A stretch of 64,000 nucleotides of DNA from Salegentibacter sediminis. GTDB taxonomy: Bacteria > Bacteroidota > Bacteroidia > Flavobacteriales > Flavobacteriaceae. Position numbers and translations under genes: made by a program. Below are positions 4,333 to 29,962 of the stretch, one piece after another. The stretch is taken from the NCBI RefSeq assembly GCF_002078605.1, contig NZ_MSJR01000001.1, positions 682,001 to 746,000 on the forward strand, given 5' to 3'. The notes below the pieces were generated by a model that was given only the letters and a program-made list of their open reading frames with translations, had not been told where the DNA came from and did not search any database. Within the stretch, counting starts at the first letter, position 1, and each line of letters starts with the position of its first letter.

Positions 4333-4414
4333 GCGGGCGTGGTGGAATTGGTAGACACGCTAGACTTAGGATCTAGTGCCGCGAGGTGTGAGAGTTCGAG
4401 TCTCTCCGCCCGCA
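4333..4414 (+). tRNA. tRNA-Leu(UAG)
   Basis: Acceptor arms GCGGGCG (4333-4339) and CGCCCGC (4407-4413) pair, with discriminator A at 4414. The anticodon stem CTAGA/TCTAG encloses the loop CTTAGGA, so the anticodon is TAG. A long variable arm marks a class II tRNA, and the T-loop GTTCGAGTC is standard. The 3' CCA is not encoded. The 3' part, from the anticodon loop onward, is shared exactly with 29911-29962 and is the integration site of the element to the right, which restores the gene's 3' end. Confidence 0.97.
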
Positions 4415-4415
4415 C
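4364..4415 (+). repeat. attL: 52-bp direct repeat inside tRNA-Leu
   Basis: Identical to 29911-29962 from the anticodon loop to one base beyond the tRNA end. The flanking bases differ on both sides (G before it here, A at the right copy), which fixes the repeat limits. This is the usual attachment-site arrangement for tyrosine integrases that target a tRNA 3' end. Confidence 0.93.
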
Positions 4416-4423
4416 AGCAAGGG

Positions 4424-4454
4424 AAAAGCCGACTTTTAGGAGTCGGCTTTTTTT
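4424..4454 (+). terminator. Terminator after tRNA-Leu
   Basis: AAAAGCCGACT (4424-4434) and AGTCGGCTTTT (4441-4451) pair perfectly around a 6-nt loop and run into T residues. It lies inside the element's left end; a near copy occurs at 30075-30106. Confidence 0.88.
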
Positions 4455-4459
4455 GTTTG

Positions 4460-4479
4460 GGTAACACAAGGGTAACACA
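4460..4479 (+). repeat. Paired GGTAACACA repeats, left end of the element
   Basis: Two copies of GGTAACACA (4460-4468 and 4471-4479) are spaced 11 bp apart, about one helical turn. The same pair with the same spacing and direction lies at 29786-29805 beside the integrase start. Matching sites at both ends suggest integrase or excisionase arm-binding sites. Confidence 0.6.
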
Positions 4480-4603
4480 TTTTATTAAAACGCCTTACAT
4501 TAAATTCTTTTTAAACTTTTTTAACATCAAAAGTAGCAGAATGAAATGCGGTCGACGGTGGTCTTCCTGAGCACGAGCTAATTGCGGTCCAAAAAAGAAA
4601 GGG

Positions 4604-4889
4604 AATTCGAACGATGCTGCCAAAGAAGCCCTTAAAAAATTAAAAGAAAAAGAATCTACAGTAGCCATGGTTGGGGATGGGGGAAACGATGAGCCGGCAA
4701 TAGCCAATAGCACCGTAGGAATAGCCAGCAGGAAGTAATGTTGCCTTGGAAGCGATGGATATTGCATTGATGGCCGACAAGCCGGAAACACTTCCATATG
4801 CTATTGGATTGAGTAGAAAATCTGAATCTATTATCAGCCCCATCCGCCTGGAATCCAAATTTACAAAACTTAGCTTTTTCGTAATTTAG
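4604..4889 (+). pseudogene. Remnant of a heavy-metal P-type ATPase (C-terminal part)
   Basis: In one frame 4610-4736 reads NDAAKEALKKLKEKEST and then VAMVGDGGNDEPAIANSTVGIAS, the hinge region of P1B ATPases (normally VAMVGDGINDAPALA). It then stops. A different frame from 4737 to the stop at 4889 continues with NVALEAMDIALMADKPET, LPYAIGLSRKS and a short tail. So one frameshift splits the segment, the conserved GDGxNDAP motif is altered to GDGGNDEP, and the whole N-terminal transport and phosphorylation region is absent. It is a dead fragment of a ZntA/CadA-like metal exporter, perhaps captured from an earlier resistance island at this tRNA. The rest of 4455-5047 shows no gene. Confidence 0.8.
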
Positions 4890-5047
4890 GAAAGGATCTT
4901 TTTTGGATGGCTATAATAGTTGATAGAAATTTTAATTAGAAGATTCGTTAATTAAGTTTTTTCTAATTTTCTTAAATAAGGATTATTCAAATGGGGGTAT
5001 CGGGCTGCGTAAGGATAACACCTTTTGGTTACCGGAAGTCCAATGAA

Positions 5048-5611
5048 TTATAACTGAGAGTGTAAAAAATCTGCAGTATCCTTTAAACCTCTGTTCCGTA
5101 AAATATCTAAAACTTCAAACTCATTCAGATCAGGGTTTCTTCTGTTTAGCACCATTTCTTTAAAAGCCTCAACTGCTTGTTCCGGATTTAAATCGATTAT
5201 ATCGGTTAAAAAATCATCTGCAGTTTTAGCCGAAAGACCAAATGAAGCAAGATATTCTTTTGGAAAATCCTTTATATTATTAGTTACTATTACGTTAGCA
5301 TTGGTTTTTATTCCTGCAGCTAAAACATGACAATCTTTAGGATCTGGTAGTGTGAGATTAGGTATTAAGGCTGAGTAATTATTAACCATGGCATCTGGAA
5401 AGGCTAAATTTGCTTTCTCAGCTCTTTTGCTGGCAACTGATTCTTCTACTCCCTTTCTTTTCATTACATCTTTCCACTCATCGAATATATGTTCGCTCCA
5501 TTTCGGGGTATACAAATCATAATAAGCAAACCAGAAAAGCAAATCTCTAATTTCAATTGGATAAATGACGTTTGTGTCCAGAACACATTTAAACCTTACA
5601 CTATGAATCAT
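5048..5611 (-). CDS. PIN-domain toxin (PIN_3 type, VapC-like)
   Basis: A predicted RNase toxin. The PIN fold acidic residues can be seen: Asp12 in VLDTNVI, Glu45 in FDEWK, Asp93 in PKDCHVLAAG, and a polar/acidic end in TNNIKDFP (Asp115). At 187 residues it is longer than classical VapC; the C-terminal helical extension is typical of PIN_3 proteins encoded next to excisionase-like DNA-binding antitoxins. It overlaps the upstream antitoxin gene by 11 bp, so the pair is translationally coupled. The likely job is to stabilise the element in its host. Confidence 0.85.
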   Translation of the reverse strand: MIHSVRFKCVLDTNVIYPIEIRDLLFWFAYYDLYTPKWSEHIFDEWKDVMKRKGVEESVASKRAEKANLAFPDAMVNNYSALIPNLTLPDPKDCHVLAAGIKTNANVIVTNNIKDFPKEYLASFGLSAKTADDFLTDIIDLNPEQAVEAFKEMVLNRRNPDLNEFEVLDILRNRGLKDTADFLHSQL

Positions 5612-6056
5612 ACAGACCTAATTCTTCATCAGACTTCATTATATCAATTAGATGTTGCTTCTGGTCCTTCTTCATCTTTCTTTTGTATTTCATAACATCT
5701 TCAAACCTAACACGTCTATGTTTACCAACCTTGGTAAATTCAATTTTACCTTCTTCGAGCAATTTCACGAAATGAGGTCTTGAACAACCCAAAATCTCCG
5801 CCGCTTTTTGCGTAGTAACTTCTGTAGCCATCGGCACTATCGAAAAAGGTTTACCTTCACTCATTGCCTTCAGAACTTCTCCCAATAATTTTAAAGCTTT
5901 TAATGGAATTTTGATCCTTTCCTGGGTTTCTTCAATTTCAATTTCAGGATTTTCCGATTTTAACTGCCGGATTACAGATGCTAAAGCATCATATGACTCA
6001 ATAGCAATTTTTTGCTCATCTTTTGAAGGACGATTAATATTTTTAAAAGTTTCCAT
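5601..6056 (-). CDS. Excisionase-family HTH antitoxin partner of the PIN toxin
   Basis: A DNA-binding protein of 151 residues. The segment at 79-125 (EVTTQKAAEILGCSRPHF ... GKHRRVRFEDVMKYKR) is a winged MerR-like / HTH_17 fold, as found in excisionases. The N-terminal half is charged and helical. Because its 3' end overlaps the PIN gene, it is best read as the antitoxin and autorepressor of a type II pair rather than as the element's excisionase; a separate excisionase-like gene lies at 27237-27467. Two 9-bp direct repeats just upstream are a natural operator. Confidence 0.8.
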   Translation of the reverse strand: METFKNINRPSKDEQKIAIESYDALASVIRQLKSENPEIEIEETQERIKIPLKALKLLGEVLKAMSEGKPFSIVPMATEVTTQKAAEILGCSRPHFVKLLEEGKIEFTKVGKHRRVRFEDVMKYKRKMKKDQKQHLIDIMKSDEELGLYDS

Positions 6057-6084
6057 AACCTGATCTGTTTTGCTTCTACAATAT

Positions 6085-6102
6085 TAAACGAAATAAACGA
6101 AA
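6085..6102. promoter_or_regulatory. Direct-repeat operator candidate for the toxin-antitoxin pair
   Basis: TAAACGAAA occurs twice in tandem (6085-6093, 6094-6102), about 30 bp upstream of the antitoxin start. Tandem repeats in this position are typical of autoregulated toxin-antitoxin promoters; binding by the HTH protein is inferred. Confidence 0.45.
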
Positions 6103-6216: not shown

Positions 6217-7110
6217 TCAATTTGAATTTCGATATTGGGCAGGCGTATAGCCTGTCCCTTTTTTAAACATCCGGGTAAAATGCTGTGGGTATTTGAACCC
6301 CAATTCATAAGCGATCTGGCTTATAGATTTATCTGCTTCAAATATCTTTTCTTTAGCTATATCTATTAATTTAAGGTGGATATGATCCATTGCCGATTTA
6401 CCGGTTTCCTTTTTAATTAAATCGCCAAAATAATTTGGGGAAAGATTTAATTCCTCTGCAAAATACGCTACAGAAGGCAGGCCTATTTGCTTCGGATTTT
6501 CAGAATGGAAATATTCATGTAATAATTTTTCAAAATTGGAGAGAATACCCTTATTTAAGTTCTCTCTGGTAATAAACTGCCTGTCATAGAAACGTTCGCA
6601 ATAGTTCAGCAATAGTTCAATATTATTGGCTACAATCGTTTTACTGTGTTTGTCTATATTTTGATCGAGTTCGTAATCTATTTTTAAAAACAGTTCCTTT
6701 ACTATTTGTTGTTCTTTTTTAGATAAGTGCAAAGCCTCGTTTAACTCATAGGAAAAAAAGTTATATCTATGGATATTTGCTGCAAGCGGAGTGCCTTTGA
6801 TGAATTCCGGATCAAATAGTAAGGCAAAGCCTTTTGGATTGTAATCTTTTTGGCTTTTTATTCCCACCACCTGACCGGGACCCATAAATACCAGGGTACC
6901 TTCTTCATAATCATAATTATTACGCCCGTATTGGAGCTGCCCGCAGTTTACACCTTTAAGGAATATGGCATAAAAGCCGAAACTGAAATTGCCACTATGT
7001 AAAGGTTTCGCTGTGGAACTGTCAAAAGCAGTAATTAAGGGATGCCTGGTGGGTATCGCCTTAAGTTCATTGTACTGGGAGATGCTATCTATCTTAACTA
7101 AATCCTTCAT
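6217..7110 (-). CDS. AraC-family transcriptional regulator
   Basis: 297 residues with an N-terminal cupin-like sensing domain (a conserved YEEGTLVFMGPGQV segment) and two C-terminal helix-turn-helix units, the second ending ISQIAYELGFKYPQHFTRMFKK. This is the canonical AraC/XylS DNA-binding domain. I prefer the ATG at 7110 over one at 7146 because the protein then starts directly with MKDLVKI, as in relatives. It is divergent from the five-gene operon starting at 7307 with under 200 bp between, the usual arrangement for an activator and its target. The inducer cannot be read from the sequence. Confidence 0.88.
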   Translation of the reverse strand: MKDLVKIDSISQYNELKAIPTRHPLITAFDSSTAKPLHSGNFSFGFYAIFLKGVNCGQLQYGRNNYDYEEGTLVFMGPGQVVGIKSQKDYNPKGFALLFDPEFIKGTPLAANIHRYNFFSYELNEALHLSKKEQQIVKELFLKIDYELDQNIDKHSKTIVANNIELLLNYCERFYDRQFITRENLNKGILSNFEKLLHEYFHSENPKQIGLPSVAYFAEELNLSPNYFGDLIKKETGKSAMDHIHLKLIDIAKEKIFEADKSISQIAYELGFKYPQHFTRMFKKGTGYTPAQYRNSN

Positions 7111-7306
7111 ATTACAGTATCTGAAATTTCCATACAAATATACCAATCAGATTATTAGTAAATTAGAAGACCAGGTCTAATCAGTAAAAATGGTAAGGAT
7201 AGCAGTATTCTGTATACAAAGTGTGGCTGTTTATTATTCGATATTTGTATAGATATGGAATATTTATCTTTATTTAGGTATATGTTCAATTCAAAAATTT
7301 AGTAAT
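7111..7306. promoter_or_regulatory. Divergent control region between araC-type gene and exported-enzyme operon
   Basis: On the minus strand a TATATTTG box (7135-7142) lies about 25 bp before the regulator start. For the plus-strand operon, TTTG (7244-7247) followed after 17 nt by TATCTTTA (7265-7272) is a fair promoter candidate. Between them AGACCaGGTCT (7168-7178) is a perfect odd palindrome, extended by TTAGA/TCTAA, and could bind the AraC protein. All three are motif matches only. Confidence 0.4.
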
Positions 7307-8425
7307 ATGATATTAAAAACACATATTAAACCTAAGACATTATCTTCTCCTTTTAAGGGGATTTTATTATTGCTAAGTTTTTTAATTTTTTCCTGCGGGG
7401 TTCAACATAATGATGAATTAATTATTGAAAAACAAGGAAGTTTCACCGTTGGAGGTACAGTAAAAAAGAGTCCTGGTACTTTTGACCCGGTGGAACACGG
7501 AGCATTTAATCCCGCTAATCAAAGTACCCAGGGGCAAACCCTGCACGGGGATCACGCCACGGTGCTTTTTCAACACCCGGTAAACTCCCGCGAATTACCA
7601 CTGGTTTTCTGGCACGGATTCGGGCAATCGATGAGAACCTGGCAAACTACTCCCGATGGTAGAGAGGGATTCCAAAGTATTTTTCTTCGGAAACGTTTTC
7701 CGGTGTATTTAATCGACCAGCCCCGAAGAGGATTATCTGGAAGAAGTACTGAACCTACCACCATTTCGGCAGGTACCGATGATCAGTTGTGGTTTGGTAT
7801 CTTCAGATTGGGATTAGGGACCGAATTTTATGAAGATGTACAATTCTCAAAAGATCCTGAAGCTTTAGATCAGTTCTTCCGACAAATGACTCCCGATACC
7901 GGGCCCTTGAATATAGAATTAAATATTGATGCGGTTTCTGCTCTATTCAATAAAATCGGTCCTGGCGTGTTGGTGACCCATTCCCACAGTGGTGGGCAAG
8001 GCTGGCTCACAGCTCTGGAAAATGACAATATAAAAGCTATCGCATCTTATGAGCCGGGAAGTAATTTTGTATTTCCGGAGGGAGAAGTACCGGAAGCAAT
8101 ACCTTATTTAGGCGGTCAACTCAGTGCACGGGCAGTTCCTATGTCTGATTTCGAAAAGCTTACTGAAATTCCAATTATCATCTATTATGGAGATTATATC
8201 CCTGAAGAAGAAACACAGAACCCGGGTAAAGAACAGTGGCGGGCAGCGCTTACTATGGCCAGAAAATGGACTTCTATCGTGAACAAGCACGGGGGAGATG
8301 TTACGCTGGTACCACTACCCGAAATCGGAATGAAAGGTAATACGCATTTCCCAATGTCAGATTTAAACAATCAAGAAGTTGCTGAACACTTGTTCGAGTG
8401 GCTACAGGAAAAAGCTTTGGACTAA
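7307..8425 (+). CDS. Alpha/beta-hydrolase lipoprotein
   Basis: 372 residues. A lipoprotein signal peptide ends LLSFLIFSCG, with Cys30 as the lipidation site. The mature part has alpha/beta-hydrolase features: an oxyanion-side HGFGQSMRTW, the strand LVTHSHSGGQGW forming the nucleophile elbow (Ser in THSHSGG in place of the usual GxSxG), and a distal GNTHFPMSD segment likely to supply the catalytic His. The substrate is unknown, and ester or lactone hydrolysis is only a family-level guess. It is the first gene of an operon of five exported proteins transcribed away from the AraC regulator. Confidence 0.8.
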   Translation: MILKTHIKPKTLSSPFKGILLLLSFLIFSCGVQHNDELIIEKQGSFTVGGTVKKSPGTFDPVEHGAFNPANQSTQGQTLHGDHATVLFQHPVNSRELPLVFWHGFGQSMRTWQTTPDGREGFQSIFLRKRFPVYLIDQPRRGLSGRSTEPTTISAGTDDQLWFGIFRLGLGTEFYEDVQFSKDPEALDQFFRQMTPDTGPLNIELNIDAVSALFNKIGPGVLVTHSHSGGQGWLTALENDNIKAIASYEPGSNFVFPEGEVPEAIPYLGGQLSARAVPMSDFEKLTEIPIIIYYGDYIPEEETQNPGKEQWRAALTMARKWTSIVNKHGGDVTLVPLPEIGMKGNTHFPMSDLNNQEVAEHLFEWLQEKALD

Positions 8426-8452
8426 AAACATAATAATCTTAAATAATACATT

Positions 8453-9304
8453 ATGAGACTCATAAAAAAATTCTGTTTAATTGCCGTAATCGGGCTGCTT
8501 TCATCGTACTCCTTGATGGCTCAAAATGAAATTTTTCCGAAAGGTGAAAAAGCACCGAACGTTTATCATACCGGAGATGTTTGGCTAAACCACCTGGCTG
8601 ATGCCGATGAAAACTTCGATTTTAATGTAGTACAGGCAACAATGGCAGCCGGTTCAAAATTGAATTGGCATCTTCATCCAAAGGGTCAACAATTATACAT
8701 CACAGGCGGAGTTGGCTATTACCAGGAAAAAGGAAAGGAAGTTCAGGTAGTAAAAAAAGGAGAGGTGATAAAATGTGATCCAGAAGTGGAACATTGGCAC
8801 GCTGCCACCCCCAATACCCCGGTTACTTATATCGCAATAAGTGGAAATGCACCTACCAAATGGACTGATACCATTACCGCGGAAACCTATAATGCTATCA
8901 AGGCTCCAGAATTATCAAGTTCGGATATTGAAAAAGAAATCAAAGAACTTTCCAAAAAGAAATGGGATTGGATGGCCGATAAGGATGCCGATAAACTTGA
9001 AAACTTATTTCACGAGAAATCCCAGTTTGTTCATATGGGCGGAAGCTGGGGAAAAGACCGTGAGGTTGAGGTTATTCGTAGCGGAGGTATACACTATAAG
9101 AAAGCAGATATTCACGAAGTGTCTGCAGATATTATAGGTAATACTGCTATTGTTTCAAGCCGAATCACCCTATTGGCAGTGGTAGGTGGAAATGAAGTAA
9201 CTAATCCTTTTATAGCGACCGAGGTTTATGTAAAAGAAGGGAATGAATGGAAATTAGCAAACCTTTCTTTTGTAAAACAACTTTCTAGTCCTAATGAAGA
9301 TTAA
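8453..9304 (+). CDS. Exported cupin fused to an NTF2-like (DUF4440/SnoaL-type) domain
   Basis: 283 residues. The signal peptide ends near YSLMAQ. Residues about 30-140 are a small cupin with a likely metal site (NWHLHPKGQQ and later EHWHAA). Residues about 155-275 match the NTF2-like fold (KKKWDWMADKDADKLENLF, then a C-terminal strand with EVYVKEGNEWKLANLSF). The cupin half is clearly paralogous to the C-terminal domain of the CMD gene at 10433: both share a PKGEK/PRGEK start, GYYQEKG, a KKGxVxKC segment and HWH. The last 11 bp overlap the next gene. Function unknown; isomerase or oxygenase chemistry on small carbonyl compounds is possible. Confidence 0.75.
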   Translation: MRLIKKFCLIAVIGLLSSYSLMAQNEIFPKGEKAPNVYHTGDVWLNHLADADENFDFNVVQATMAAGSKLNWHLHPKGQQLYITGGVGYYQEKGKEVQVVKKGEVIKCDPEVEHWHAATPNTPVTYIAISGNAPTKWTDTITAETYNAIKAPELSSSDIEKEIKELSKKKWDWMADKDADKLENLFHEKSQFVHMGGSWGKDREVEVIRSGGIHYKKADIHEVSADIIGNTAIVSSRITLLAVVGGNEVTNPFIATEVYVKEGNEWKLANLSFVKQLSSPNED

Positions 9305-9743
9305 AAAAGCAGGGATGAAACTCCCTAAAGTAGTGTTGATATTATTTTTAGCAATATTCTGTATTAGTTCTTATGGCCAGGAAAAAAATGAGGACCAGGA
9401 TGTTGAAGTCGATGAAATGATTATAAGGATGGCTAAAATTAAAGTATATGCTAACCACAGAGATGAATACATTGCTATTCTTAACGAAGAGGCAGAAGCT
9501 TCAATTAAATTGGAACCGGGAGTAATATGTATTTATCCAATGTATCAAAAAGAAAATCCTACTGAGATAAGGTTACTGGAAATCTACGCTAATAAAAAGG
9601 CTTATCAATCACATTTAGAAACACCCCATTTTAAATCTTATAAAGAAAAAACGAGAAGTATGATTGATACCCTCGAATTAATTGATATGGAGGCTTTAGA
9701 TAAAGAAGCAATGCCTCTAATTTTTAGTAAAATTAAAGAATAA
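9294..9743 (+). CDS. Exported antibiotic-biosynthesis-monooxygenase (ABM) domain protein
   Basis: 149 residues. After a signal peptide (hydrophobic stretch to about residue 28, ending SSYGQ) comes one ABM ferredoxin-like fold: a first strand MIIRMAKIKVYANHRDEYIAIL, then EPGVICIYPMYQKENPTEIRLLEIYANKKAYQSHLETPHFKSY. ABM proteins form dimeric alpha-beta barrels that oxidise quinols or similar aromatics without a cofactor; most are cytosolic, so the signal peptide is unusual. The start overlaps the previous gene by 11 bp, indicating coupled translation. Confidence 0.8.
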   Translation: MKIKKAGMKLPKVVLILFLAIFCISSYGQEKNEDQDVEVDEMIIRMAKIKVYANHRDEYIAILNEEAEASIKLEPGVICIYPMYQKENPTEIRLLEIYANKKAYQSHLETPHFKSYKEKTRSMIDTLELIDMEALDKEAMPLIFSKIKE

Positions 9744-9783
9744 GATTAATTCAAATTTCAATCTCAATTAAATATTGAAGTTA

Positions 9784-10407
9784 ATGAACAAGAGTTTAGT
9801 TGTCATATTATCATCCCTAATTTTTGCAGTGGAAATGGATTGTGCTAATTCTCAGGAGAAAATATCTTTAGGTTCAGAGAAACCACTTATTGTATACCTG
9901 TCTCGAACCCAAAATACAAAAGTGGTAGCCGAGCTAATCCAGAATAAGGTGGGTGGAGAACTGGTAGCCCTTGAAAAAGAAAATCCCTACCCCGAGGATT
10001 ATCAAAAAATCGTGGATCAGGTAGATCGTGAGAATGAAGAAGGATACCTACCTCCATTAAAAACAAAAATAGAAGATCTTGAAAGTTATGATACGATCTT
10101 TATAGGCTTTCCTACCTGGGATATGCAAATGCCACCACCAATGAAATCCTTTTTAACTGAAAATGATATGAGTGGAAAAACCATAATCCCATTTAACACC
10201 AATGCCGGATTTGGAGTAGGACAGGGATTTGAACAATTGCGAGAGCTATCTCCTGAAAGTGATATTCTTGAAGGTTTTTCGATAGAAGGCGGCTATGAAA
10301 AAAGAGGGGTATTCTTAGCCATTCAGGGAGAACGTGAGGAAGAAGTCTCAGATCAGCTTTATACCTGGTTGCAAAAAATTGGGCTTCTAGAAAGATTATC
10401 CAAATAA
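9784..10407 (+). CDS. Exported flavodoxin-like protein
   Basis: About 207 residues. A signal-like N-terminus (MNKSLVVILSSLIFAVE) precedes a flavodoxin fold: IVYLSRTQNTKVVAELI forms the phosphate-binding loop for FMN, and IFIGFPTWDMQMPPPMKSFL and IIPFNTNAGFGVGQGFEQL follow, as in the long flavodoxins annotated in Bacteroidetes. A TTG three codons earlier (9775) is a possible start, but the ATG at 9784 fits the signal better. Flavodoxins normally act in the cytoplasm, so an exported one, sitting with other exported enzymes, would need an electron donor in the periplasm or export already folded. Confidence 0.75.
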   Translation: MNKSLVVILSSLIFAVEMDCANSQEKISLGSEKPLIVYLSRTQNTKVVAELIQNKVGGELVALEKENPYPEDYQKIVDQVDRENEEGYLPPLKTKIEDLESYDTIFIGFPTWDMQMPPPMKSFLTENDMSGKTIIPFNTNAGFGVGQGFEQLRELSPESDILEGFSIEGGYEKRGVFLAIQGEREEEVSDQLYTWLQKIGLLERLSK

Positions 10408-10432
10408 CTATTGAATCTTAAAATTTAAAAAA

Positions 10433-11554
10433 ATGAACTATAATTTTAGAAGTATACTTTTTTGTTTGTTGATAGTAGTGCCTTTCACTATTTCAGCACA
10501 ATCGGAAAATGAAAAGTTAAATCCTACTGAATATAGTATTGCCAGAATTTCTGCGGCTACTGCTACAGGAGATCTTGAAACTTTAGAAGATGCCTTAAAC
10601 GAAGGTTTGGATAATGGACTTAGCATCAATAAAATAAAAGAGGAACTTGTTCATCTGTATGCCTATACCGGATTCCCCAGAAGTCTTATGGCCATCAATA
10701 TGCTAACCGAGGTGTTGGACGATAGAAGGGAAAAGGGAATTGAAGACGTAGTGGGGGAAGCGCCTAAAGATTTAGAAGAAGGCAATAAATATGAAATAGG
10801 AAAGGAAGTTTTGGCCGATCTAACCGGAGTAGAAGACCGCCCAACAGCTGGTTATGCTAAGACAGTTCCCATTATTGAAGTCTTTTTAAAGGAACACCTC
10901 TTTGCAGATATTTTTAAGCGAGGGGTATTGAGTTATAAAGAGCGGGAAATTGCTACGGTGGCTGCCCTTTTAAGTATGGGGGGTGCGGCACCTATGGCTA
11001 CAGGTCATATTAAAATTAGTATGAGACACGGAGTGACTGAACCGCAGATACTTCAAATTGTGGAGATGATAGAAAACGAAATTGATAAAGAAACAGGTCT
11101 TGAGAGTAGGGACGTTGTAGCAGGATTAATTTCCGGGGAACCTGCTGAAACGAAACCCACAACTGATAACAGTGAAAAAATATATCCACGAGGTGAAAAA
11201 ATAGAAAATCCTGTATTTACCGGGAATGCGTGGGTTAATTTTTTAGTTACAGCCGATGAGGTAAATAAAAATTCTGTAGGTGTCGTAACCTTTGAACCCG
11301 GAGCCAGGACCTTTTGGCACCAGCATCCCAATGGACAGATAATACTTGCCCTTTCGGGAGAAGGATATTATCAGGAAAAGGGGAGTGCAAAAGTAATAAT
11401 GAAAAAAGGAGATGTAGCAAAATGCCCTGCGGATACACCTCACTGGCACGGCGCTGGTCCGAATGACGAATTTGTGCAAATAGCCATTACCAGTAGGGTT
11501 GATGGTCCTACACAATGGGGTGATGAGGTTTTAGATTCCCAGTATAATGAATAA
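10433..11554 (+). CDS. Exported carboxymuconolactone-decarboxylase-like protein fused to a cupin
   Basis: 373 residues. The signal peptide ends FTISAQ. Residues about 30-110 and 120-230 are two CMD (AhpD-like) helical repeats (LVHLYAYTGFPRSLMAINML; ATVAALLSMGG ... GHIKISMRHGVTEPQILQIVEMI). Neither carries the CxxC pair of AhpD peroxidases, so thiol peroxidase activity is unlikely. Residues about 250-370 are a cupin with FWHQHPNGQ and PHWHGAG metal-site motifs, paralogous to the cupin at 8453. Last gene of the AraC-linked operon. CMD-cupin fusions are common in Bacteroidetes, but the substrate is unknown. Confidence 0.8.
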   Translation: MNYNFRSILFCLLIVVPFTISAQSENEKLNPTEYSIARISAATATGDLETLEDALNEGLDNGLSINKIKEELVHLYAYTGFPRSLMAINMLTEVLDDRREKGIEDVVGEAPKDLEEGNKYEIGKEVLADLTGVEDRPTAGYAKTVPIIEVFLKEHLFADIFKRGVLSYKEREIATVAALLSMGGAAPMATGHIKISMRHGVTEPQILQIVEMIENEIDKETGLESRDVVAGLISGEPAETKPTTDNSEKIYPRGEKIENPVFTGNAWVNFLVTADEVNKNSVGVVTFEPGARTFWHQHPNGQIILALSGEGYYQEKGSAKVIMKKGDVAKCPADTPHWHGAGPNDEFVQIAITSRVDGPTQWGDEVLDSQYNE

Positions 11555-12027: not shown

Positions 12028-12486
12028 ATGGCACAGTTCGATGTAAAGATTAACGGTAAGAAGCATTCGGTAGATGTAGATCCTGAAACTCCATTACTTT
12101 GGGTGCTGCGCGATAATTTTAAATTGGTTGGCACAAAATATGGCTGCGGGATTGCACAATGTGGTGCATGTACCGTCCACTTTAACGGTTCTGCTGTACG
12201 CTCCTGCCAGGTTCCAATTTCAGCAGTAGAAGATAATGAAATAACAACTATAGAAGGCCTCTCCGAAAACGGAGATCACCCTGTTCAAAAGGCCTGGTTG
12301 GAGCACGATGTCCCCCAATGCGGATATTGCCAGGCTGGGCAGATTATGGCAGCTACGGCACTTTTAAAAAATAACCCCAGTCCCAGTGATTCAGAAATTG
12401 AAGAGGTAATGAATGGAAATATTTGCCGCTGCGGAACTTATAATCGGATTAAAGCCGCTATCAAATCAGCTTCCCAAACCGTATAA
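12028..12486 (+). CDS. [2Fe-2S] subunit of a molybdenum hydroxylase (isoquinoline 1-oxidoreductase alpha type)
   Basis: 152 residues with both iron-sulfur domains of the xanthine-oxidase family small subunit. The plant-ferredoxin type cluster uses Cys40, Cys45, Cys48 and Cys60; the helical-domain cluster uses Cys98, Cys101, Cys133 and Cys135 ([19 protein letters not shown]). It passes electrons from the molybdenum centre of the partner subunit encoded 15 bp downstream. No FAD subunit gene is present, which is typical of the IorAB group, where the acceptor is an external carrier. No signal peptide of its own; it probably travels with the Tat-targeted partner. Confidence 0.93.
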
Positions 12487-22836: not shown

Positions 22837-23592
22837 ATGCCTTTAGAATACCTCCCTTTTGTTTTCTTTTTTATCGCATTATTTTATAGTTCGGTTGGTT
22901 TTGGTGGTGGCTCCAGTTACCTGGCAATCCTTAGTCTTGTATTAACCGACTTTTATGAAATACGGTCTACCGCATTAATACTGAATATATTTGTGGTAAC
23001 TATCGGTACCCTGGTTTTTATTAAAAACAGTGTGCTTAAATTAAAATTAATATGGCCATTTTTTGTGCTGAGTATTCCATTGGCCTACCTGGGGGCGGTA
23101 ATTAAATTATCGCAAACTACATTTTTTCTAATCCTTGGAGGCGCATTGGTGATGGCAGGTTTTTTTATGATTTTAAAATTTCTGCAAAATAAAATACAGA
23201 CTCAAGAATTTTCCAATCCTAAAAAAATTATTCTTGGCGGAAGTATAGGCCTACTTTCAGGAATATCCGGGATAGGAGGAGGAATTTTCTTATCTCCAGT
23301 TTTAAACCTTTTGAACTGGGCGAATCCCCGCATCATTGCATCGGTAGCTTCTGTTTTTATTCTGGTTAATTCCTTAGCCGGACTTATTGGACTAAATATG
23401 GCCGGGACTTTTCAAGTAAATTATAGCCTCATATTTAAATTGATTATTGCTGTAATCTTGGGTGGAAGCCTGGGGTCTTATCTTTCTAATAAAAGATTTA
23501 ACCTAAAATTTCTAGGGATATTTACTGCTTTTCTTGTAATCTATGTAGGGTTGCGCCTCGTTCTATTTCATGGTTTTGCAATAAAGATTTAG
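22837..23592 (+). CDS. TauE/SafE-family (TSUP) membrane permease
   Basis: 251 residues, mostly hydrophobic, with about eight membrane helices and the duplicated TSUP signature (VGFGGGSSYLAIL early; GLLSGISGIGGGIFLSPVL in the second half). It follows moeA by a single base and closes the cofactor operon. TSUP proteins move sulfite, sulfonates or other small anions. As no modABC molybdate transporter is present in the element, this permease may handle an anion needed by or produced from the pathway (molybdate, sulfite or the enzyme's product); that is inference only. Confidence 0.85.
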   Translation: MPLEYLPFVFFFIALFYSSVGFGGGSSYLAILSLVLTDFYEIRSTALILNIFVVTIGTLVFIKNSVLKLKLIWPFFVLSIPLAYLGAVIKLSQTTFFLILGGALVMAGFFMILKFLQNKIQTQEFSNPKKIILGGSIGLLSGISGIGGGIFLSPVLNLLNWANPRIIASVASVFILVNSLAGLIGLNMAGTFQVNYSLIFKLIIAVILGGSLGSYLSNKRFNLKFLGIFTAFLVIYVGLRLVLFHGFAIKI

Positions 23593-23743
23593 ACTTTATA
23601 GCACTAAATTATTTGCCTTGGAATTATAATTTTTCGTTAAAAATAATAACCATATTTGCTCATAATAAAATTTTTTAGGGAGGGTTAGAAGACGTTTTAA
23701 TAAATTCCAGCCCCAAATCTACCATAACTTACCTGCGCCGGAT

Positions 23744-23799
23744 CCTATGCTGTTTTTATAGCGTACGGGAAGTTAAGTGTAAAGTAAAAACAGCATAGG
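23744..23799. repeat. 15-bp perfect inverted repeat between cargo and mobilisation genes
   Basis: CCTATGCTGTTTTTA (23744-23758) and its exact complement (23785-23799) enclose 26 nt; partial complementarity (TGCGCC / GGCGCA) continues outside. The adjoining operons converge here, and neither arm has a classic U-tract terminator layout, so it may be a terminator variant, a recombination scar or a site used in transfer. The rest of 23593-23813 shows no gene. Confidence 0.6.
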
Positions 23800-23813
23800 G
23801 CGCACCTACTGCT

Positions 23814-24215
23814 TCATTTTGAAGTATTATTTCCTTTCTGAACTGGAATTTCTTTTCTTAGCTGGCTATTTAATTTCTGGGTCTCATTTTGGCTTCCAAT
23901 CACCTTATAGGTGAGATAACTAAATGATATCAGTAGGACCAATAAAATACTGAGAAGTAATCCTGCCAGGCTCTTAGGAAGGATATATGCCCTTTCCAAT
24001 TTTGAAAGTATTAATTCCAGATTTCCAGTTCTCGCATTTTCCTTTTGCTGCTGGACCTCAAGAAAGGAATTCAAATGTTTTTCTAAGACCTCCGTACTCA
24101 GCGGCACACTGGTTTTGTGCAATTTATTAGATAGATCTTCAAGGCGCTCCAGGGATGATTTAAAATCAGCCATCTCATCGGCCATCAGTTCCATAATTTC
24201 ATCCAGTTTTTTCAT
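23814..24215 (-). CDS. Mobilisation-associated membrane protein (unknown function)
   Basis: 133 residues. The first ~75 residues are charged and helical, probably coiled coil (LERLEDLSNKL ... LEKHLNSFLEVQQQ). One membrane helix follows at about 83-105 (LAGLLLSILLVLLISFSYLTY), then a short polar tail. Proteins of this build are regularly encoded directly after relaxase genes in Bacteroidetes mobilisable elements; here it lies 17 bp downstream of the relaxase. It may tether the relaxosome to the membrane, but this is a guess from context. Confidence 0.6.
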   Translation of the reverse strand: MKKLDEIMELMADEMADFKSSLERLEDLSNKLHKTSVPLSTEVLEKHLNSFLEVQQQKENARTGNLELILSKLERAYILPKSLAGLLLSILLVLLISFSYLTYKVIGSQNETQKLNSQLRKEIPVQKGNNTSK

Positions 24216-24232: not shown

Positions 24233-25099
24233 TCACATTCCTATTCCTGTATCCATTACTTTTTTTAAAGCTCCTTTTATAATGTCTTTGGTTATTTTGG
24301 AGGCAAGGTTGCTGCTTAATTGCACCGTTTTGTTTAAAACCAAAAGGTTTCTTGGCGCCTCCTTTAATCTTGTAAAACTCTTGTTTTGTGAGATTACCGC
24401 AATTAATTTATTACCACTCATGGAACGGTCGATTTCACTGGCCTTAAGATTTACACCATTATATTCCATACGAAACCCCTGAAGCTTATTGGCTTTATTG
24501 ATTGTTGGAATCACCTCCACCTTGTAAGTTTTCATCTTATTTATATAATCATCCAGGGACTTTGGTTTTGTTTGCAAAACCCGATCATGAATACGCTTTA
24601 TTTCCTGCCGAAGGCCTTTTAATTCCTGAAGTTTTCCTTGCTGTACTTCCTTAACCCGGGTAAAACCTAATTCTTTTGCGACATTCTCTGCGGCTATTTG
24701 ACTGCGCTTTCCAATAAAACTGTCATTGTAGGCTTTACCATCAAAGCCAATTCTATTGGTATAGATATGAAGGTGGGTATGCGCTTTATCCCGGTGAACA
24801 AATCCTATGGACTGATGGTCTTGCAGTTTCATTTCTTTTAAAAACTTTCGGGCGAGTTCTTCCAGGTCTTTATTGTTTAAATTCTTTCCGTCTTCAATCG
24901 TTGGGCTTACTATGAAGCTTAAGGTATTCTTGTTACAGCGCTCATTCTGCGACTGGATAATCTTAAACTCCTCGGCTATCTCAGCGGGAGTATCTCCGGA
25001 CACATATTCTCTCAGTACAATTTCAGCTTCTTTTCCCTGGTTCCAACCATAGGAGATAGAAACTTTTGTTCCGGCAATGGCGTGTCCTTTCCCAATCAT
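24233..25099 (-). CDS. Relaxase / mobilisation nuclease
   Basis: 288 residues with the relaxase fold. The HUH motif is clear: His102, then His109 and His111 in HRDKAHTHLHIYTNRI, which binds the metal for nicking. Tyr17 (SISYGW) is a candidate catalytic tyrosine near the N-terminus. The C-terminal part (about 150-288) is helical and not recognisable as a helicase or primase, so this is a minimal MobP/BmpH-like relaxase. It overlaps the MobC-like gene by 4 bp. It should nick the element's oriT and lead the strand into a recipient through a helper element's secretion system. Confidence 0.88.
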   Translation of the reverse strand: MIGKGHAIAGTKVSISYGWNQGKEAEIVLREYVSGDTPAEIAEEFKIIQSQNERCNKNTLSFIVSPTIEDGKNLNNKDLEELARKFLKEMKLQDHQSIGFVHRDKAHTHLHIYTNRIGFDGKAYNDSFIGKRSQIAAENVAKELGFTRVKEVQQGKLQELKGLRQEIKRIHDRVLQTKPKSLDDYINKMKTYKVEVIPTINKANKLQGFRMEYNGVNLKASEIDRSMSGNKLIAVISQNKSFTRLKEAPRNLLVLNKTVQLSSNLASKITKDIIKGALKKVMDTGIGM

Positions 25100-25392
25100 T
25101 TTTTAAAGTTTTTTAAATGTTCTCTTATTTCATTGGCCAGACTTTTTACGGTTATGGCCAGCTTTGGATCCCGCTTTTTAAACATATTTCCAATTCGGGA
25201 AAAATTGTTTTTATACTGAACCAACATCTGGTATATTTCCAGTTGTTCAGGAGTAATTCGTTCTACAATATTCCTTTGAAAGGCCGCACCTCGGATATAT
25301 TCTGATAGGGAAATTCCTGCTCTGGCCGCTCTTCTTTTAAGCAGCTTTTTCTCGTAGATCGAGCAGCGAACCTGGATGTATTCCCTTTTCAT
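25096..25392 (-). CDS. MobC-like relaxosome accessory protein (ribbon-helix-helix)
   Basis: 98 residues. The N-terminus (YIQVRCSIYEKKLLKRRAARAGISLSEYIRGAA) is a ribbon-helix-helix DNA-binding unit, and the rest (QYKNNFSRIGNMFKK ... LANEIREHL) matches MobC-type proteins that melt oriT for the relaxase. It is the first gene of the mobilisation operon and sits about 30 bp from the palindrome at 25424-25464, its likely target. Confidence 0.82.
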   Translation of the reverse strand: MKREYIQVRCSIYEKKLLKRRAARAGISLSEYIRGAAFQRNIVERITPEQLEIYQMLVQYKNNFSRIGNMFKKRDPKLAITVKSLANEIREHLKNFKK

Positions 25393-25683: not shown

Positions 25684-25771
25684 AAATCCCATTTCCTGGA
25701 CGAACCTCTTTTTTCTAAGCTGCAGCTTTTGCGCAAGCGTGGGAAATGTGGTGAGGACTTTTTAGTACTAA

Positions 25772-26437
25772 TCATTCTCGCCAACTCTTCCCTTCCCATT
25801 TAATGATATTAAACATTTCCGGTAACCGGTCTCCAATATGATTTCCATAGCGGGCAGTAATCGCCGATGGGTTTTCATTGGTAGTCACAAAAGTTTTTAA
25901 TTTCCTGCGGTGCCTTTCAAAGAGTAATTTTCCAATGATCTCTTCCCGGTTATAGGCCTTATCTTCTTTACCCAAATCATCCAGATACAATTTTCCGTGG
26001 TAATAGTTTCCCAGTTTAAAATTGCTGGTTTTATCCCTCTGTGATTCATAATACCTAGTAAGCAAATGAACCGTTGAAATGCGTGGGAACCAAAGCTGGG
26101 TGCTTCGGGTATGCTCCAGGATTATTCTTCCAATGTTATGGATAGCATCAAAAAGTGTCGTTTTCCCCACGCCATAATCTCCATAAACCAACAGGCCTTT
26201 TTCAAGTGTCGCCTTGTTTTTAATAATCCCAAATTCATTAAAATCGGGCTGCAGTAAAAAATAACGAAAAATGCTAAAGATGATTTGATGGTTTTCATCC
26301 GTTATTAGAAACCCAGGATAATGCTTACGAAATAACTTCCAGAAAACATGTTTGCTGATCTGGGCCTGGTTTGGATTGCCTTCCCTTTTTTGGGCATTAA
26401 GCTTTGACGAAATGAATGGAGATTCCGAGCTAGTCAT
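25772..26437 (-). CDS. DnaC/IstB-like AAA+ ATPase
   Basis: 221 residues. Walker A is GDYGVGKT (86-93) and Walker B is KLYLDDLGKED; a sensor-like VTTNENPSAITARYG follows, and the C-terminus ends at GDRLPEMFNIIKWEGKSWR, as in DnaC-type helicase loaders. It overlaps the upstream gene by 8 bp. In mobilisable elements of Bacteroidetes such a loader accompanies a replication protein, so it may help the excised circle to replicate. A general role in host replication restart is less likely given its location. Confidence 0.8.
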   Translation of the reverse strand: MTSSESPFISSKLNAQKREGNPNQAQISKHVFWKLFRKHYPGFLITDENHQIIFSIFRYFLLQPDFNEFGIIKNKATLEKGLLVYGDYGVGKTTLFDAIHNIGRIILEHTRSTQLWFPRISTVHLLTRYYESQRDKTSNFKLGNYYHGKLYLDDLGKEDKAYNREEIIGKLLFERHRRKLKTFVTTNENPSAITARYGNHIGDRLPEMFNIIKWEGKSWRE

Positions 26438-27233
26438 AATTTTGAACTTTATGCTGAACTTGGAGGTCCATGGTTTTTATTTTCACCGGCTTTTTCCCCT
26501 GGGCGATGAGTGATCCAATTTTTTCCCGGAGTTTACGAGTGCTTAGTATAATTCCTTTCCAGAATTCGTCGGAACCATTCAACAGCTCATAGGCCAGTTG
26601 TAGTTGTTCTTGTGAAACCCCATCTTTCTCCATCATCAGCCGAATCGGCTCGAAACACTCCTTAAAACTCGCCTTTTCTGTTTTTTTTGTTGGCGCACCT
26701 TTATTTTTTAAGTTTTCTAAAAAAAGTTTTTGAAATTTAAGAGCCCAATCAAGATAGCCCAGGTAGTTTTCTGGAATTTCAGATCTATTCACTTTTAAAA
26801 ATTCCTTTTTAAAGAAAGTTTTAAGGTTTAATAGGTTTATTTGTTTATGGTTTAATTGTTTATCTATACTAGCAATGCTTTGGACTTGCTTTGTACACTG
26901 CCCAGACAAGGCTTTGTCCAATGCTTTGGGTGGTGCTTTGGTATTTTTTACTAAAGCAATGACATTGGCAGTGTACTGGTTCTTGCTTTTCTGAATCCAT
27001 TCTATAAATTTCCATGCTACAAGGTCCTCAAGGGCCCGAATATAAGTTTTATAGTTCCGGATGCCCAGGGCTTCCATAGCCAGATCGGTTGGAAATCCAA
27101 ATGTTTCCTTCCATCCCAGTCTATTGCAGCGTTCAATGGCAAAAAAGTAAATAGCGGTATGGATCGGTTTAACTTTGTTAGAATGGTTAAAACTAAAATC
27201 GAACCATGCCCTTGAAAATTCATAACCATTCAT
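26430..27233 (-). CDS. Putative replication initiation or DnaD-like protein of the element
   Basis: 267 residues. The N-terminal ~100 residues look like a winged-helix module (HTAIYFFAIERCNRLGWKETFGFPTDLAMEALGIRNYKTYIRALEDLVAWKFIEW), similar to those of element-encoded replication proteins. A central linker rich in Lys and Gln follows. The C-terminal part (FKECFEPIRLMMEKDGVSQEQLQLAYELLN) is helical. Its overlap with the DnaC-like gene resembles DnaD/DnaC pairs. I do not recognise a named family with certainty. Confidence 0.6.
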   Translation of the reverse strand: MNGYEFSRAWFDFSFNHSNKVKPIHTAIYFFAIERCNRLGWKETFGFPTDLAMEALGIRNYKTYIRALEDLVAWKFIEWIQKSKNQYTANVIALVKNTKAPPKALDKALSGQCTKQVQSIASIDKQLNHKQINLLNLKTFFKKEFLKVNRSEIPENYLGYLDWALKFQKLFLENLKNKGAPTKKTEKASFKECFEPIRLMMEKDGVSQEQLQLAYELLNGSDEFWKGIILSTRKLREKIGSLIAQGKKPVKIKTMDLQVQHKVQNYD

Positions 27234-27467: not shown

Positions 27468-27581
27468 AGGTTCTATTATTTTACAAAAACAACACTGCAG
27501 TTGTCTTCTGGTTATAGAAACAAATGACTAATTAAAATCCTTGTAAATCAATATGGTAACAGGTAATCAAGTGGTAATTAC

Positions 27582-28307
27582 CTATAAGATGGCTTTGAAA
27601 ATACTGGAGATTTCTTTAAGATAAGAGGATTTGTTATTTCGCCAGTCGGAAATATTCTTGCTGGATAAGTGTTGCTCGGTTCCTGCGGTGTTTTTAAGAA
27701 TGAAATAATGCTCAACAAACAGAATCATTTGATGATTATCCAGGTTTTCAAAACCGATTAATAAATGGCTTAAAAATTCTAATAATGTTTGTCGGTTTAC
27801 TTGCTTTGGTCTTTTAGGAGATAGATCTTGCCATTTTAATCGACTCCTCGCTGGCACGGGTTCCATTAAAATTAAAGATTGGAAGCTTTGGTAATCGCCG
27901 GTGAGATATTTCCTGGAGAACGCTTTAAAGACAGCATTGGTTTGACCAAGTGTTAGTGGGATAGGCTTCAGGTTTAACTGCTTAATTTTTGCTATTTCAG
28001 GATTATTTACGGTATATACTTCCAGAGTATCAGACCTTTTCCTAATTCTCTTTCTGGTGAGAATAAAATAAATTGCTGAAATACAGAACAAAGCGGATAG
28101 CAGGTAAATAACAGTAAAACTGAACTTAAACCACAGAGAATAAGGGGTGATCCAGATATAAAAAAGAAGTCCGGTCAATAAGATAAGACAACACGTAAAA
28201 AAGATTTGCCCAAGTTGGGAATCTGTTTCCCTAAGCAGGTAGTTATAAAAATCCAGGAGTTTTGCCCTTAACCGAAGAGTAAAAACTGCGAACCGTTCCA
28301 AAAACAT
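27582..28307 (-). CDS. Membrane protein of unknown function in the integrase module
   Basis: 241 residues. Two membrane helices lie at roughly 35-52 (FFTCCLILLTGLLFYIWI) and 59-83 (FKFSFTVIYLLSALFCISAIYFI), joined by a short loop. The soluble C-terminal ~150 residues contain LTLGQTNAVFKAFSRKYLTGDY and a tail with HLSSKNISDWRNNKSSYLKEI that resembles a small helical DNA- or protein-binding region. I do not know the family. Similar two-helix proteins lie between integrase and excisionase genes in related elements. Confidence 0.5.
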   Translation of the reverse strand: MFLERFAVFTLRLRAKLLDFYNYLLRETDSQLGQIFFTCCLILLTGLLFYIWITPYSLWFKFSFTVIYLLSALFCISAIYFILTRKRIRKRSDTLEVYTVNNPEIAKIKQLNLKPIPLTLGQTNAVFKAFSRKYLTGDYQSFQSLILMEPVPARSRLKWQDLSPKRPKQVNRQTLLEFLSHLLIGFENLDNHQMILFVEHYFILKNTAGTEQHLSSKNISDWRNNKSSYLKEISSIFKAIL

Positions 28308-28507
28308 ATTATAAAGCTTGCTATTCTCTACTTAAAGATAACGAAAAGAAAGTATAAGTTTCTTTGATAGATCTTATACTTGAGCCTAATGAGAGTGTTG
28401 GATATTTGAGAATATTATTTTTTTTATGTTTTCGAAGAAATCCATAGCCTAATTTAGGGTATTTTGAGCTTCCTTATATGCGAATTAAATGTCAATGTAA
28501 TTTTGAA

Positions 28508-29749
28508 TCAATTCCCCACGTCACTATTGGAAAATTTTAAAATTTCGTGCAAAGCCTCATCTGAACTTTTATGAATGAAATTCCTTTGGTATCCAATTGT
28601 GGTCTGAAGACTACTATGTCGATATAGCTTTTGTAACATTTGAGGAGAAACTTTATCTCCGGCAATATTGCCAAAGGAATGTCTCGCAATGTGATTGGTT
28701 ATTTTCTTATTAATTCCTGCAAGTTTTGCAATATCCTTTAGATTTGAATTATGTTTTTTTATAGCTCCCTTTATTAAACTATATTTTTCTTTGGTTTCTA
28801 CATCTCCGACTTTTTTCAATTCGGGAAAAATAAAATCTGAATGCGACTTTTTATCATTCCGGTAAAAATCCAGAATTTCAATTGCTTTTCCTGGTAATTT
28901 TAATGAATCAAGTTTGGAATTTTTCTTCATTCTATAAAATAATCGATCCTCTATGATATCGTTCCATCTTAGATGAAGAAGATCGGTGATTCTAATTCCT
29001 GCTAAATAGAAGGAGAATAAAAAAATGTTTCTTGAATGCCATAACGAAGAATGCTTCTTTAAACTTACTTGTTCAATTTTTAGAATTTCCTGCTCAGTTA
29101 AACCAATTTTTAATGAATCCGGATATTTAATAAGTATTTTATCCCTTCCAAAAGGATAAAAATTTCGGTCAATTATCCCTTTTCTGATTGCACGGTTATA
29201 TAATAACCTTATAAACACGTAGGAGTTCATAACAGTCCTTTCTGAATTATTCTTTTCATTAATAAGGTAAACTTTAAAACGTTTTAGGAAATTCTCATCA
29301 ATTTCCTGAAAGAGGATGTCTCGTCCTTTAGTGAAGTCTTTGATGATTTTTGCTTTAGACCGGTCTGAAATAGCTCGATTAAATTTTTTTGATCTTTCCA
29401 AATCAGCAATATGTTCATCAGCAAAGTCAAAGAAAGAAATAGTTTTCCTGGATTGCTTTATTTTATCCATAATTTGCTTTGCTGATAACTGCCTCTTATT
29501 GCGTTCTGCCTCATAAATAATATCATCTATCTGATCATACTTTTTACGAATTAGACGATTTAAATGTTGATATTTAGGGTGGGACTTTTTTACTTTCTCA
29601 GCTTGCTCATCCCAATCGTCTGGATCGAGGTTATAACCTAAATGATAATAGCTGCGTTTCCGAAATGAAGTTACTCTTATGGCAAGCCGGAAAATTTTTT
29701 CATTTTCATCAATCTTTTTCGGGTGTAATATTACTTTAATATGAGCCAT
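28508..29749 (-). CDS. Tyrosine site-specific integrase
   Basis: 413 residues from the ATG at 29749. The N-terminal arm-binding and SAM-like core-binding domains precede the catalytic domain. Catalytic residues visible are the Arg in LAGIRITDLLHLRW, the HxxR in NHIARHSFG, a late His in LYRHSSLQ and the nucleophile Tyr in TTIGYQR. It is the Bacteroidetes phage_int_SAM_5 type. It reads away from the right attachment site, which lies about 160 bp upstream of its start, and is the enzyme expected to join the element to tRNA-Leu. The longer frame to 29806 runs into the GGTAACACA repeats and is not preferred. Confidence 0.93.
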   Translation of the reverse strand: MAHIKVILHPKKIDENEKIFRLAIRVTSFRKRSYYHLGYNLDPDDWDEQAEKVKKSHPKYQHLNRLIRKKYDQIDDIIYEAERNKRQLSAKQIMDKIKQSRKTISFFDFADEHIADLERSKKFNRAISDRSKAKIIKDFTKGRDILFQEIDENFLKRFKVYLINEKNNSERTVMNSYVFIRLLYNRAIRKGIIDRNFYPFGRDKILIKYPDSLKIGLTEQEILKIEQVSLKKHSSLWHSRNIFLFSFYLAGIRITDLLHLRWNDIIEDRLFYRMKKNSKLDSLKLPGKAIEILDFYRNDKKSHSDFIFPELKKVGDVETKEKYSLIKGAIKKHNSNLKDIAKLAGINKKITNHIARHSFGNIAGDKVSPQMLQKLYRHSSLQTTIGYQRNFIHKSSDEALHEILKFSNSDVGN

Positions 29750-29785
29750 AATTCTTAGTTTAAGAATACTAAGATAATTATTCTG

Positions 29786-29805
29786 GGTAACACATAGGTA
29801 ACACA
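29786..29805 (+). repeat. Paired GGTAACACA repeats, right end of the element
   Basis: Copies at 29786-29794 and 29797-29805, 11 bp apart, match the pair at 4460-4479 in sequence, spacing and direction. They lie between the integrase start and the right attachment site, where integrase arm sites and integrase promoter control would be expected. Confidence 0.6.
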
Positions 29806-29910
29806 TTTACTGAATTTAAATGATATTATATGTATCTGTAAAATATGTAAATATTCTGATTATCAATCAAATAACATTATTTGTTTTTATTTGATATCCC
29901 CTCTAAAGGA

Positions 29911-29962
29911 ACTTAGGATCTAGTGCCGCGAGGTGTGAGAGTTCGAGTCTCTCCGCCCGCAC
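29911..29962 (+). repeat. attR: 52-bp copy of the tRNA-Leu 3' part
   Basis: Exact copy of 4364-4415. The upstream bases (AAAGGA) do not continue the tRNA, so this is not a second functional gene. It marks the right junction of the integrated element. Confidence 0.93.

Follow-up and report, generated by a model that had tools for sequence, protein, structure and literature searches.

Molybdoenzymes are usually assumed to need a host that already makes the molybdenum cofactor (Moco). Plasmid-borne Moco genes accompanied by hydroxylases are nevertheless known from pAO1, the nicotine megaplasmid of Arthrobacter/Paenarthrobacter nicotinovorans, which carries hydroxylases of the xanthine oxidase family and lacks moeB and a moaB/mogA homolog (PMC4342571). 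Transfer of a whole molybdenum trait has been inferred for Dielma fastidiosa JC13, in which the Moco pathway and molybdoenzymes were acquired together and are clustered; that inference comes from trees, and section 9 of the source names no carrier element (PMC6147048). In Mycobacterium tuberculosis, the Moco biosynthesis genes are likewise reported as horizontally acquired (PMC5720804). Here we analyse a 64-kb stretch of DNA (the window) from the genome of the marine bacterium Salegentibacter sediminis (3.26 Mb, 22 contigs, listed completeness 100), and we consider it likely, judging from its sequence, that a tRNA-Leu gene in the window has received at its 3' end an integrative and mobilisable element (IME), which carries a self-contained operon for a molybdenum hydroxylase together with its cofactor.

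The mobilisable MbpA/MbpB plasmids of Bacteroides and the tyrosine-recombinase elements of Bacteroidota share MbpA, an MbpB-like relaxase and phage-type integrase domains with this element. Unlike the Bacteroides plasmids, it holds ~17 kb of metabolic cargo, and plasmid relaxases are 29.5-45.2% identical to its own (15 matches listed). In contrast to pAO1, its operon has both moeB and a moaB homolog; in contrast to the Dielma case, the carrier itself is visible, together with its site and with vacant sites. The MoaA proteins of Arthrobacter/Paenarthrobacter plasmids are ~35% identical to that of the element (among the matches listed), and no close MoaA was found on plasmids, all 343 records lying at <60% identity. 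In the literature searched, with most subscription journals outside it, we found no report of an IME with a complete Moco pathway, nor of TauE as a molybdate importer. As far as that search extends, the new features are a defined integrative element with a complete pathway plus enzyme, vacant sites in congeners lacking Moco genes, a pattern of moa gene loss, and the association of TauE with Moco.

The element and its integration site

The first-pass annotation had proposed that 52-bp repeats derived from tRNA-Leu bound 25.5 kb of DNA with an integrase, an excisionase-like gene, a relaxase and MobC. The repeats are borne out, since the two copies match at 52 of 52 nt (100% identity), with a start-to-start distance of 25,547 bp. 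A 26-nt piece of the repeat occurs only twice in the window at <=3 mismatches, against an expectation of 0 (100 shuffles). The features at the boundaries and in the mobilisation region are as follows.

4333..4415, + strand: intact tRNA-Leu, the integration target (ARAGORN, Rfam RF00005); the left 52-bp repeat, 4364-4415, is its 3' part
4459..4479, + strand: GGGTAACACA pair inside the left end; a similar pair lies at 29785-29805, beside the integrase
5048..6056, - strand: overlapping pair of HTH (excisionase-family) and PIN-domain genes (Pfam, NCBIfam)
23711..23810, no strand: conserved non-coding block between cargo and mobilisation genes, containing a perfect 15-bp inverted repeat
23814..24215, - strand: DUF6730 protein (Pfam)
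24233..25099, - strand: MbpB-like relaxase with HTHLH motif (family match; MbpB model below NCBIfam cut-off)
25096..25392, - strand: MbpA mobilisation accessory (NCBIfam, over cut-off)
25772..27233, - strand: DnaC-like helicase loader and DnaD/O-like replication protein (NCBIfam, family scans)
27582..28307, - strand: 241-aa protein, without a family match in Pfam/NCBIfam-type scans
28508..29806, - strand: tyrosine integrase, 432 aa (phage-type integrase domain; Arg/HxxR/Tyr pattern)
29911..29962, + strand: right 52-bp repeat, attR, a partial tRNA-Leu copy (repeat comparison)

The integrase, confirmed by its family match, has an open frame of 432 aa with zero stops and would have inserted the element at the 3' end of the tRNA-Leu gene. 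Five GGGTAACACA-type sites are found at <=1 mismatch; the mean expectation is 1.95 and 6 of 100 shuffles reach five, so that the count alone is weak. Their placement, with one pair near either end of the element, suggests that they are candidate arm sites of the integrase.

The relaxase also proved correct, as an MbpB-like protein. The supposed MobC stands as a relaxase accessory, but because it scores over the NCBIfam cut-off for MbpA, that is the fitter name. The excisionase-like gene (5601-6056) does exceed the cut-off of TIGR01764, but it overlaps the PIN-domain gene (5048-5611) by 11 bp; the two thus look more like a toxin-antitoxin pair than an excisionase. Replication-type genes, a ModE-type protein and a TauE/SafE permease, all within the element, had been missing from the first-pass annotation. 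No family of the type IV secretion system was matched among the Pfam-scanned open reading frames (ORFs) of the element, small and overlapping ORFs lying outside that scan. With an open recombinase, tRNA 3'-end repeats plus empty sites, and a relaxase without full conjugation machinery, the locus classes as an IME that is predicted to excise and to be transferred.

The block at 23711-23810 is a candidate origin of transfer (oriT) or cargo junction site, and further inverted repeats inside 25402-25757 are likewise oriT candidates only. Similar blocks are present in three copies in the fetched contigs of Salegentibacter flavus, one of about 100 bp lying near the end of the S. flavus contig C10, and in two less exact copies in the congener G014. 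The block had no match in IMG/VR, searched there as one exact 28-mer, nor on plasmids at E 0.01.

Empty sites were found in two congeners, G004 and G002, in which the tRNA-Leu runs directly into the sequence that here lies beyond the right repeat. Their 52-bp cores match at 52 of 52 positions in G004 and at 48 of 52 in G002, and both genomes have neither MoaA nor MoaC. That is, in G004 there exists a congener without these Moco genes and with an exact vacant site.

A related element is present in S. flavus (G001). Its contig C13 has the same tRNA-Leu and 52-bp site, a related left end and the first part of the cargo (cargo A), and it breaks off where the mobilisation genes begin; 4624-11553 is 95.5% identical to it over 6.97 kb. 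The integrase end matches a second contig, C16, at 99.1% over 2,695 bp, again with a 52/52 site. Outside, the chromosome to the left of tRNA-Leu is only 84-90% identical. At the protein level, the integrase is 100% identical, MbpA 98% and the relaxase 88-92%. We infer that the C13 and C16 pieces belong to one element. No relative without the repeats showed the 25-kb region in full, S. flavus keeping the 52-bp site alongside its related left end and cargo A.

Three further observations concern the ends. About 100 bp to the right of the right repeat, 30065-30121 is 87% like the tRNA-Leu 3' end plus terminator plus left element end, which suggests that a second element, or a tandem copy of the tRNA, left a remnant here. 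In S. flavus C16, left-end-like sequence directly follows an integrase end. Near the left end here, 4495-4870 is a broken remnant that looks like part of a metal-transporting P-type ATPase; the ORF 4495-4797, on the other strand, has no Pfam match.

The operon, its enzyme and molybdate uptake

The remaining cargo consists of cargo A with its regulator and of a 13-gene operon (12028-23592), which encodes an IorAB-type molybdenum hydroxylase and a gene for each step of Moco synthesis:

6217..7146, - strand: AraC-family regulator, divergent from cargo A (Pfam)
7307..11554, + strand: cargo A: alpha/beta hydrolase, cupin-DUF4440, ABM monooxygenase, flavodoxin, CMD-cupin (Pfam)
12028..12486, + strand: IorA-type subunit with two 2Fe-2S motifs (Pfam, motifs)
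12502..14778, + strand: IorB-type molybdenum subunit with RRSFIK twin-arginine-like signal and GLGEP motif (Pfam, motifs)
14795..15133, + strand: ModE N-terminal-type DNA-binding protein (TIGR00637, below cut-off)
15201..16358, + strand: IscS/NifS-type cysteine desulfurase (Pfam, NCBIfam)
16355..17509, + strand: XdhC-type maturation factor (Pfam, NCBIfam)
17506..18108, + strand: MocA-like molybdenum cofactor cytidylyltransferase (Pfam; TIGR03310 best, below cut-off)
18105..18341, + strand: MoaD with C-terminal GG (NCBIfam, motif)
18338..19351, + strand: MoeB-type ThiF protein with C-terminal rhodanese domain (Pfam, NCBIfam, motifs)
19341..19787, + strand: MoaE (Pfam, motifs)
19788..20684, + strand: MoaC-MoaB fusion (Pfam; NF002947 over cut-off)
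20677..21669, + strand: MoaA with both Cys motifs and C-terminal GG (Pfam, NCBIfam, motifs)
21669..22835, + strand: MoeA (Pfam, NCBIfam, motifs)
22837..23592, + strand: TauE/SafE permease (PF01925, 102.3 bits against a cut-off of 32.6)

The cargo genes named in the first-pass annotation (IorAB and the Moa, Moe, MocA, XdhC and desulfurase genes) were found again by Pfam, with MoaD (18105-18341), which is shorter than the length limit of the first ORF list, recovered by NCBIfam. MoaA and the MoaC-MoaB fusion score above NCBIfam equivalog cut-offs, and the identity of MoaE comes from its Pfam match. For the pathway to the cytosine-dinucleotide form of Moco, a gene or domain is present for MoaA, MoaC, MoaD, MoaE, MoeB, MogA/MoaB, MoeA, MocA, XdhC and the sulfur donor. 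With roles predicted from the families, MoaA and MoaC would start Moco from GTP; MoaD and MoaE would add sulfur, recharged by MoeB-rhodanese with the cysteine desulfurase; the MoaB domain and MoeA would carry out adenylation and molybdate insertion; and MocA would cytidylate the cofactor. The desulfurase and XdhC would then sulfurate it and deliver it to the hydroxylase, whose twin-arginine-like signal may direct export. A Moco riboswitch was not found by Rfam at gathering scores in 4000-31000, where the tRNA was the sole match.

This element is the only source of MoaA and MoaC found in its host: the 22 contigs hold one of each, both inside the element, and a second complete Moco set, looked for elsewhere in the genome, was not found. 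Close relatives were also searched for moa genes, and MoaA and MoaC are missing from 7 of 15 Salegentibacter congeners, including the empty-site genomes G004 and G002 (another of the seven, G007, is only 61% complete). The genome has one IorB-like gene at E<=0.001.

The enzyme belongs to the two-subunit type of the xanthine oxidase family, with Fer2/Fer2_2 domains in IorA and MoCoBD_1/2 plus GLGEP in IorB, and we take GLGEP to be the GxGEP motif that marks the molybdenum subunit of this family. The name IorAB was carried over from the first-pass annotation; neither subunit reached an NCBIfam equivalog. The best solved match of IorB is the large subunit of an aldehyde dehydrogenase (8gy3; E 1.1e-63, residues 5-748). 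Known enzymes of one Fe-S and one molybdenum subunit have the same make-up; here, no cytochrome gene was found among the Pfam-scanned neighbours of IorAB. Because cargo A genes also adjoin IorAB in three of 28 inspected loci, namely in S. agarivorans, Arenibacter (L080) and a Christiangramia metagenome-assembled genome (L132), our guess as to the role of enzyme and cargo A is the detoxification of reactive aldehydes or quinones.

The operon's self-sufficiency depends in part on the metal. No ModB exceeds the cut-off in the S. sediminis genome, which has two weak matches and lacks a recognisable ModABC-type importer. Uptake was compared across 45 genomes with Moco genes, in a search for ModB with WtpABC and TupABC outside it; five have ModB over the cut-off (three Zunongwangia, G017 and G038) and 40 do not. 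TauE lies in the Moco cluster (in S. tibetensis, in a stripped cassette) in 38 of the 40 ModB-less genomes and in none of the five others. Among nine genomes with a short standalone MoaC in the cluster, it is present in 4 of 5 without ModB and 0 of 4 with it. Within Salegentibacter, TauE (E<=1e-20) is found in all 8 genomes with Moco and in none of the 7 without (among these the 61% complete G007). Fisher tests, with relatedness ignored, give 1.7e-5 for TauE against ModB and, within the genus, 1.6e-4 for TauE against Moco. The three Zunongwangia have ModB flanked by moeA and moeB, and their clusters contain no TauE; in the one such cluster read, ModA- and ModC-like genes, so named from sequence, lie beside it. 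The resident cluster of S. tibetensis has no TauE, and its cassette has retained TauE despite having lost moaD to moeA; in S. agarivorans and G009, TauE is present in the resident cluster and missing from the IorAB locus. Broken cassette-type TauE pieces (76-81% identity) also occur in G009, at C1:216996-217615, far from its IorAB locus at 2,159,767.

Because TauE tracks Moco and excludes ModB, we tentatively propose, at somewhat below even chances, that the operon's TauE/SafE permease is the missing molybdate importer of Moco-making Bacteroidota that lack ModABC, travelling with the cofactor pathway and the enzyme. A TauE-family protein elsewhere is a proven importer of sulfate, an analogue of molybdate (PMC11535334). 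Three points speak against this proposal. The MOT1 model PF16983 matches 37 of the 40 ModB-less Moco genomes, including this one, 28 of them over cut-off, and these matches, in frames of 423-767 aa, look like SulP permeases, which could be an alternative molybdate route. Both ModB and a TauE in the cluster are missing from G059 (83% complete) and from G016, and G038, which has ModB, shows a weak 34-bit TauE match outside the cluster. No solved-structure relative of TauE was found by sequence at E<=1.

It is possible, though we regard it as unlikely, that the element moves while its operon is not self-sufficient, the host having to contribute a further function, most probably molybdate uptake, Tat export or electron-transfer partners. 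The want of a ModB over cut-off, the MOT1/SulP-type matches as a possible molybdate supply, the twin-arginine-like signal and the missing cytochrome gene among scanned neighbours all fit this alternative, whereas the operon's own permease, tracking Moco and excluding ModB, argues for the self-contained operon.

Loss of moa genes and spread of the operon

The count of MoaC covered 23 genomes with this IorB, with locus L059 outside it. An IorAB-linked moaC is present in 16 of the 23, and 14 of these 16 have no other MoaC. In six genomes (S. agarivorans, S. tibetensis, G009 and three Zunongwangia) the IorAB locus has no moaC, and all six have MoaC elsewhere. The remaining genome, G437, has a different-type Moco set beside IorAB and another MoaC, and was for the former reason left out of the Fisher test of cassette against other MoaC, which gives 3.8e-4 with relatedness ignored. 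The moa part of the operon would thus tend to be lost where the host already makes Moco, a pattern that would follow if the moa genes were important only to hosts with no such genes of their own. In S. agarivorans, fragments of moaD, moaCB, moaA and moeA are kept in their original order, so that this copy was evidently once longer and then decayed. In G009, locus L195 (C1:1738000-1757000) holds second, partly broken pieces of MoaCB, MoaE and MoeB, ~124 kb from the resident Moco cluster.

That chance decay, and not redundancy with a resident set, removed the moa genes elsewhere seems to us quite improbable. There are few independent losses, only six genomes being without cassette moa and three of them Zunongwangia, but 14 of the 16 genomes keeping cassette moa have no other MoaC, and cassette TauE is retained in S. 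tibetensis, where the resident cluster lacks it, with the converse in S. agarivorans and G009.

The operon is not confined to this element. Of 79 named loci fetched, 28 were inspected for gene order, and 16 of them (L058-L061, L063-L071, L074, L081 and L132) show the order IorA, IorB, ModE-type HTH, desulfurase, XdhC, MocA, MoaD, MoeB, MoaE, MoaCB, MoaA, MoeA, TauE, with TauE truncated at the contig end in L065 and L070, and MoaCB inverted in L081. Among the taxa are Gramella/Christiangramia, Gillisia, Salinimicrobium, Subsaximicrobium, Mangrovivirga and Marinigracilibium. No match to the element's integrase, relaxase or MbpA was found in the flanking sequence fetched for these 16 loci (<=10 kb, less at contig ends); an operon specific to the element is thereby ruled out. 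Since the operon also exists as a chromosomal unit, it was probably recruited onto the element from such a unit in other Bacteroidota. Spanning IorA and reaching to the start of moaD, 11952-18182 is 89.7% identical to S. agarivorans (G003) over 6,233 bp, above the 76.5-79% of the tRNA-Leu flank, which indicates transfer by some route.

Several observations weigh against an IME with a self-contained operon. In S. flavus, contig C13 lacks the Moco operon, and cargo A is separated there from DUF6730 by ~1.1 kb of different sequence; an operon is found on contig C10, at 73-77% nucleotide identity. The related left end and cargo A thus occur without the operon: operon and element are not one fixed unit, and the 25 kb as one old unit is ruled out. 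The S. flavus element is moreover split between C13 (tRNA, cargo A, relaxase start) and C16 (integrase end). Seven operon proteins (MoaD, MocA, MoeA, MoeB, XdhC, cysteine desulfurase and the ModE-type protein) have fitting NCBIfam top matches that stay below the equivalog cut-offs. Among molybdoenzymes, the search of this genome covered IorB-like genes. Two genomes, G444 and G451, hold one further MoaC besides the cassette, and the genomes compared are related, so that their counts are not independent.

The least probable alternative, a conserved chromosomal operon functionally unrelated to the element and caught between tRNA repeats of an element now dead, would accommodate the 16 loci and the operon-free S. 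flavus element at this tRNA-Leu, but it is made improbable by the open integrase, identical to that of S. flavus, the closely matching MbpA and relaxase, and the identity to S. agarivorans above that of the tRNA flank, which points to transfer by some route. As to self-sufficiency in a host without Moco, which the first-pass annotation had inferred, the comparative MoaC pattern supports it, and naive congeners exist, two of them with the attachment site empty. Departures from that account are the occurrence of the operon off the element, the S. flavus element without it and the unassigned molybdate uptake, which self-sufficiency would also require.

Adjacent loci and implications

To the right of the element, in 30198-39694, an HlyD/CusB-like gene and a cation-efflux gene accompany the gene for a 1446-aa protein that joins an RND pump (ACR_tran) to an outer-membrane efflux domain (OEP); in S. 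flavus, related pump genes lie on contig C38 near an att-like copy. A low-GC stretch at 42237-45538, flanked by genes of the YaaA peroxide-stress type and of a pyruvate carboxylase-like protein, encodes two possible defence proteins, one with a Schlafen group 3 helicase domain and the other with an HNH-endonuclease domain.

The TauE lead bears on the open question of molybdenum users without a known molybdate transporter. A 2018 survey counted 278 of 3,683 molybdenum-using bacteria as such, and its authors suggest that there may be further uptake systems (PMC6147048). If the proposal holds, metal uptake, the cofactor and the enzyme would all arrive in one transfer. Cargo redundancy, for its part, has been put to a natural experiment wherever a resident set coincides with the loss of moa genes. 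Finally, with a mobile unit that carries both an enzyme and its cofactor pathway, and with naive congeners that have the exact empty site, the assumption that such enzymes need a Moco-making host becomes directly testable.

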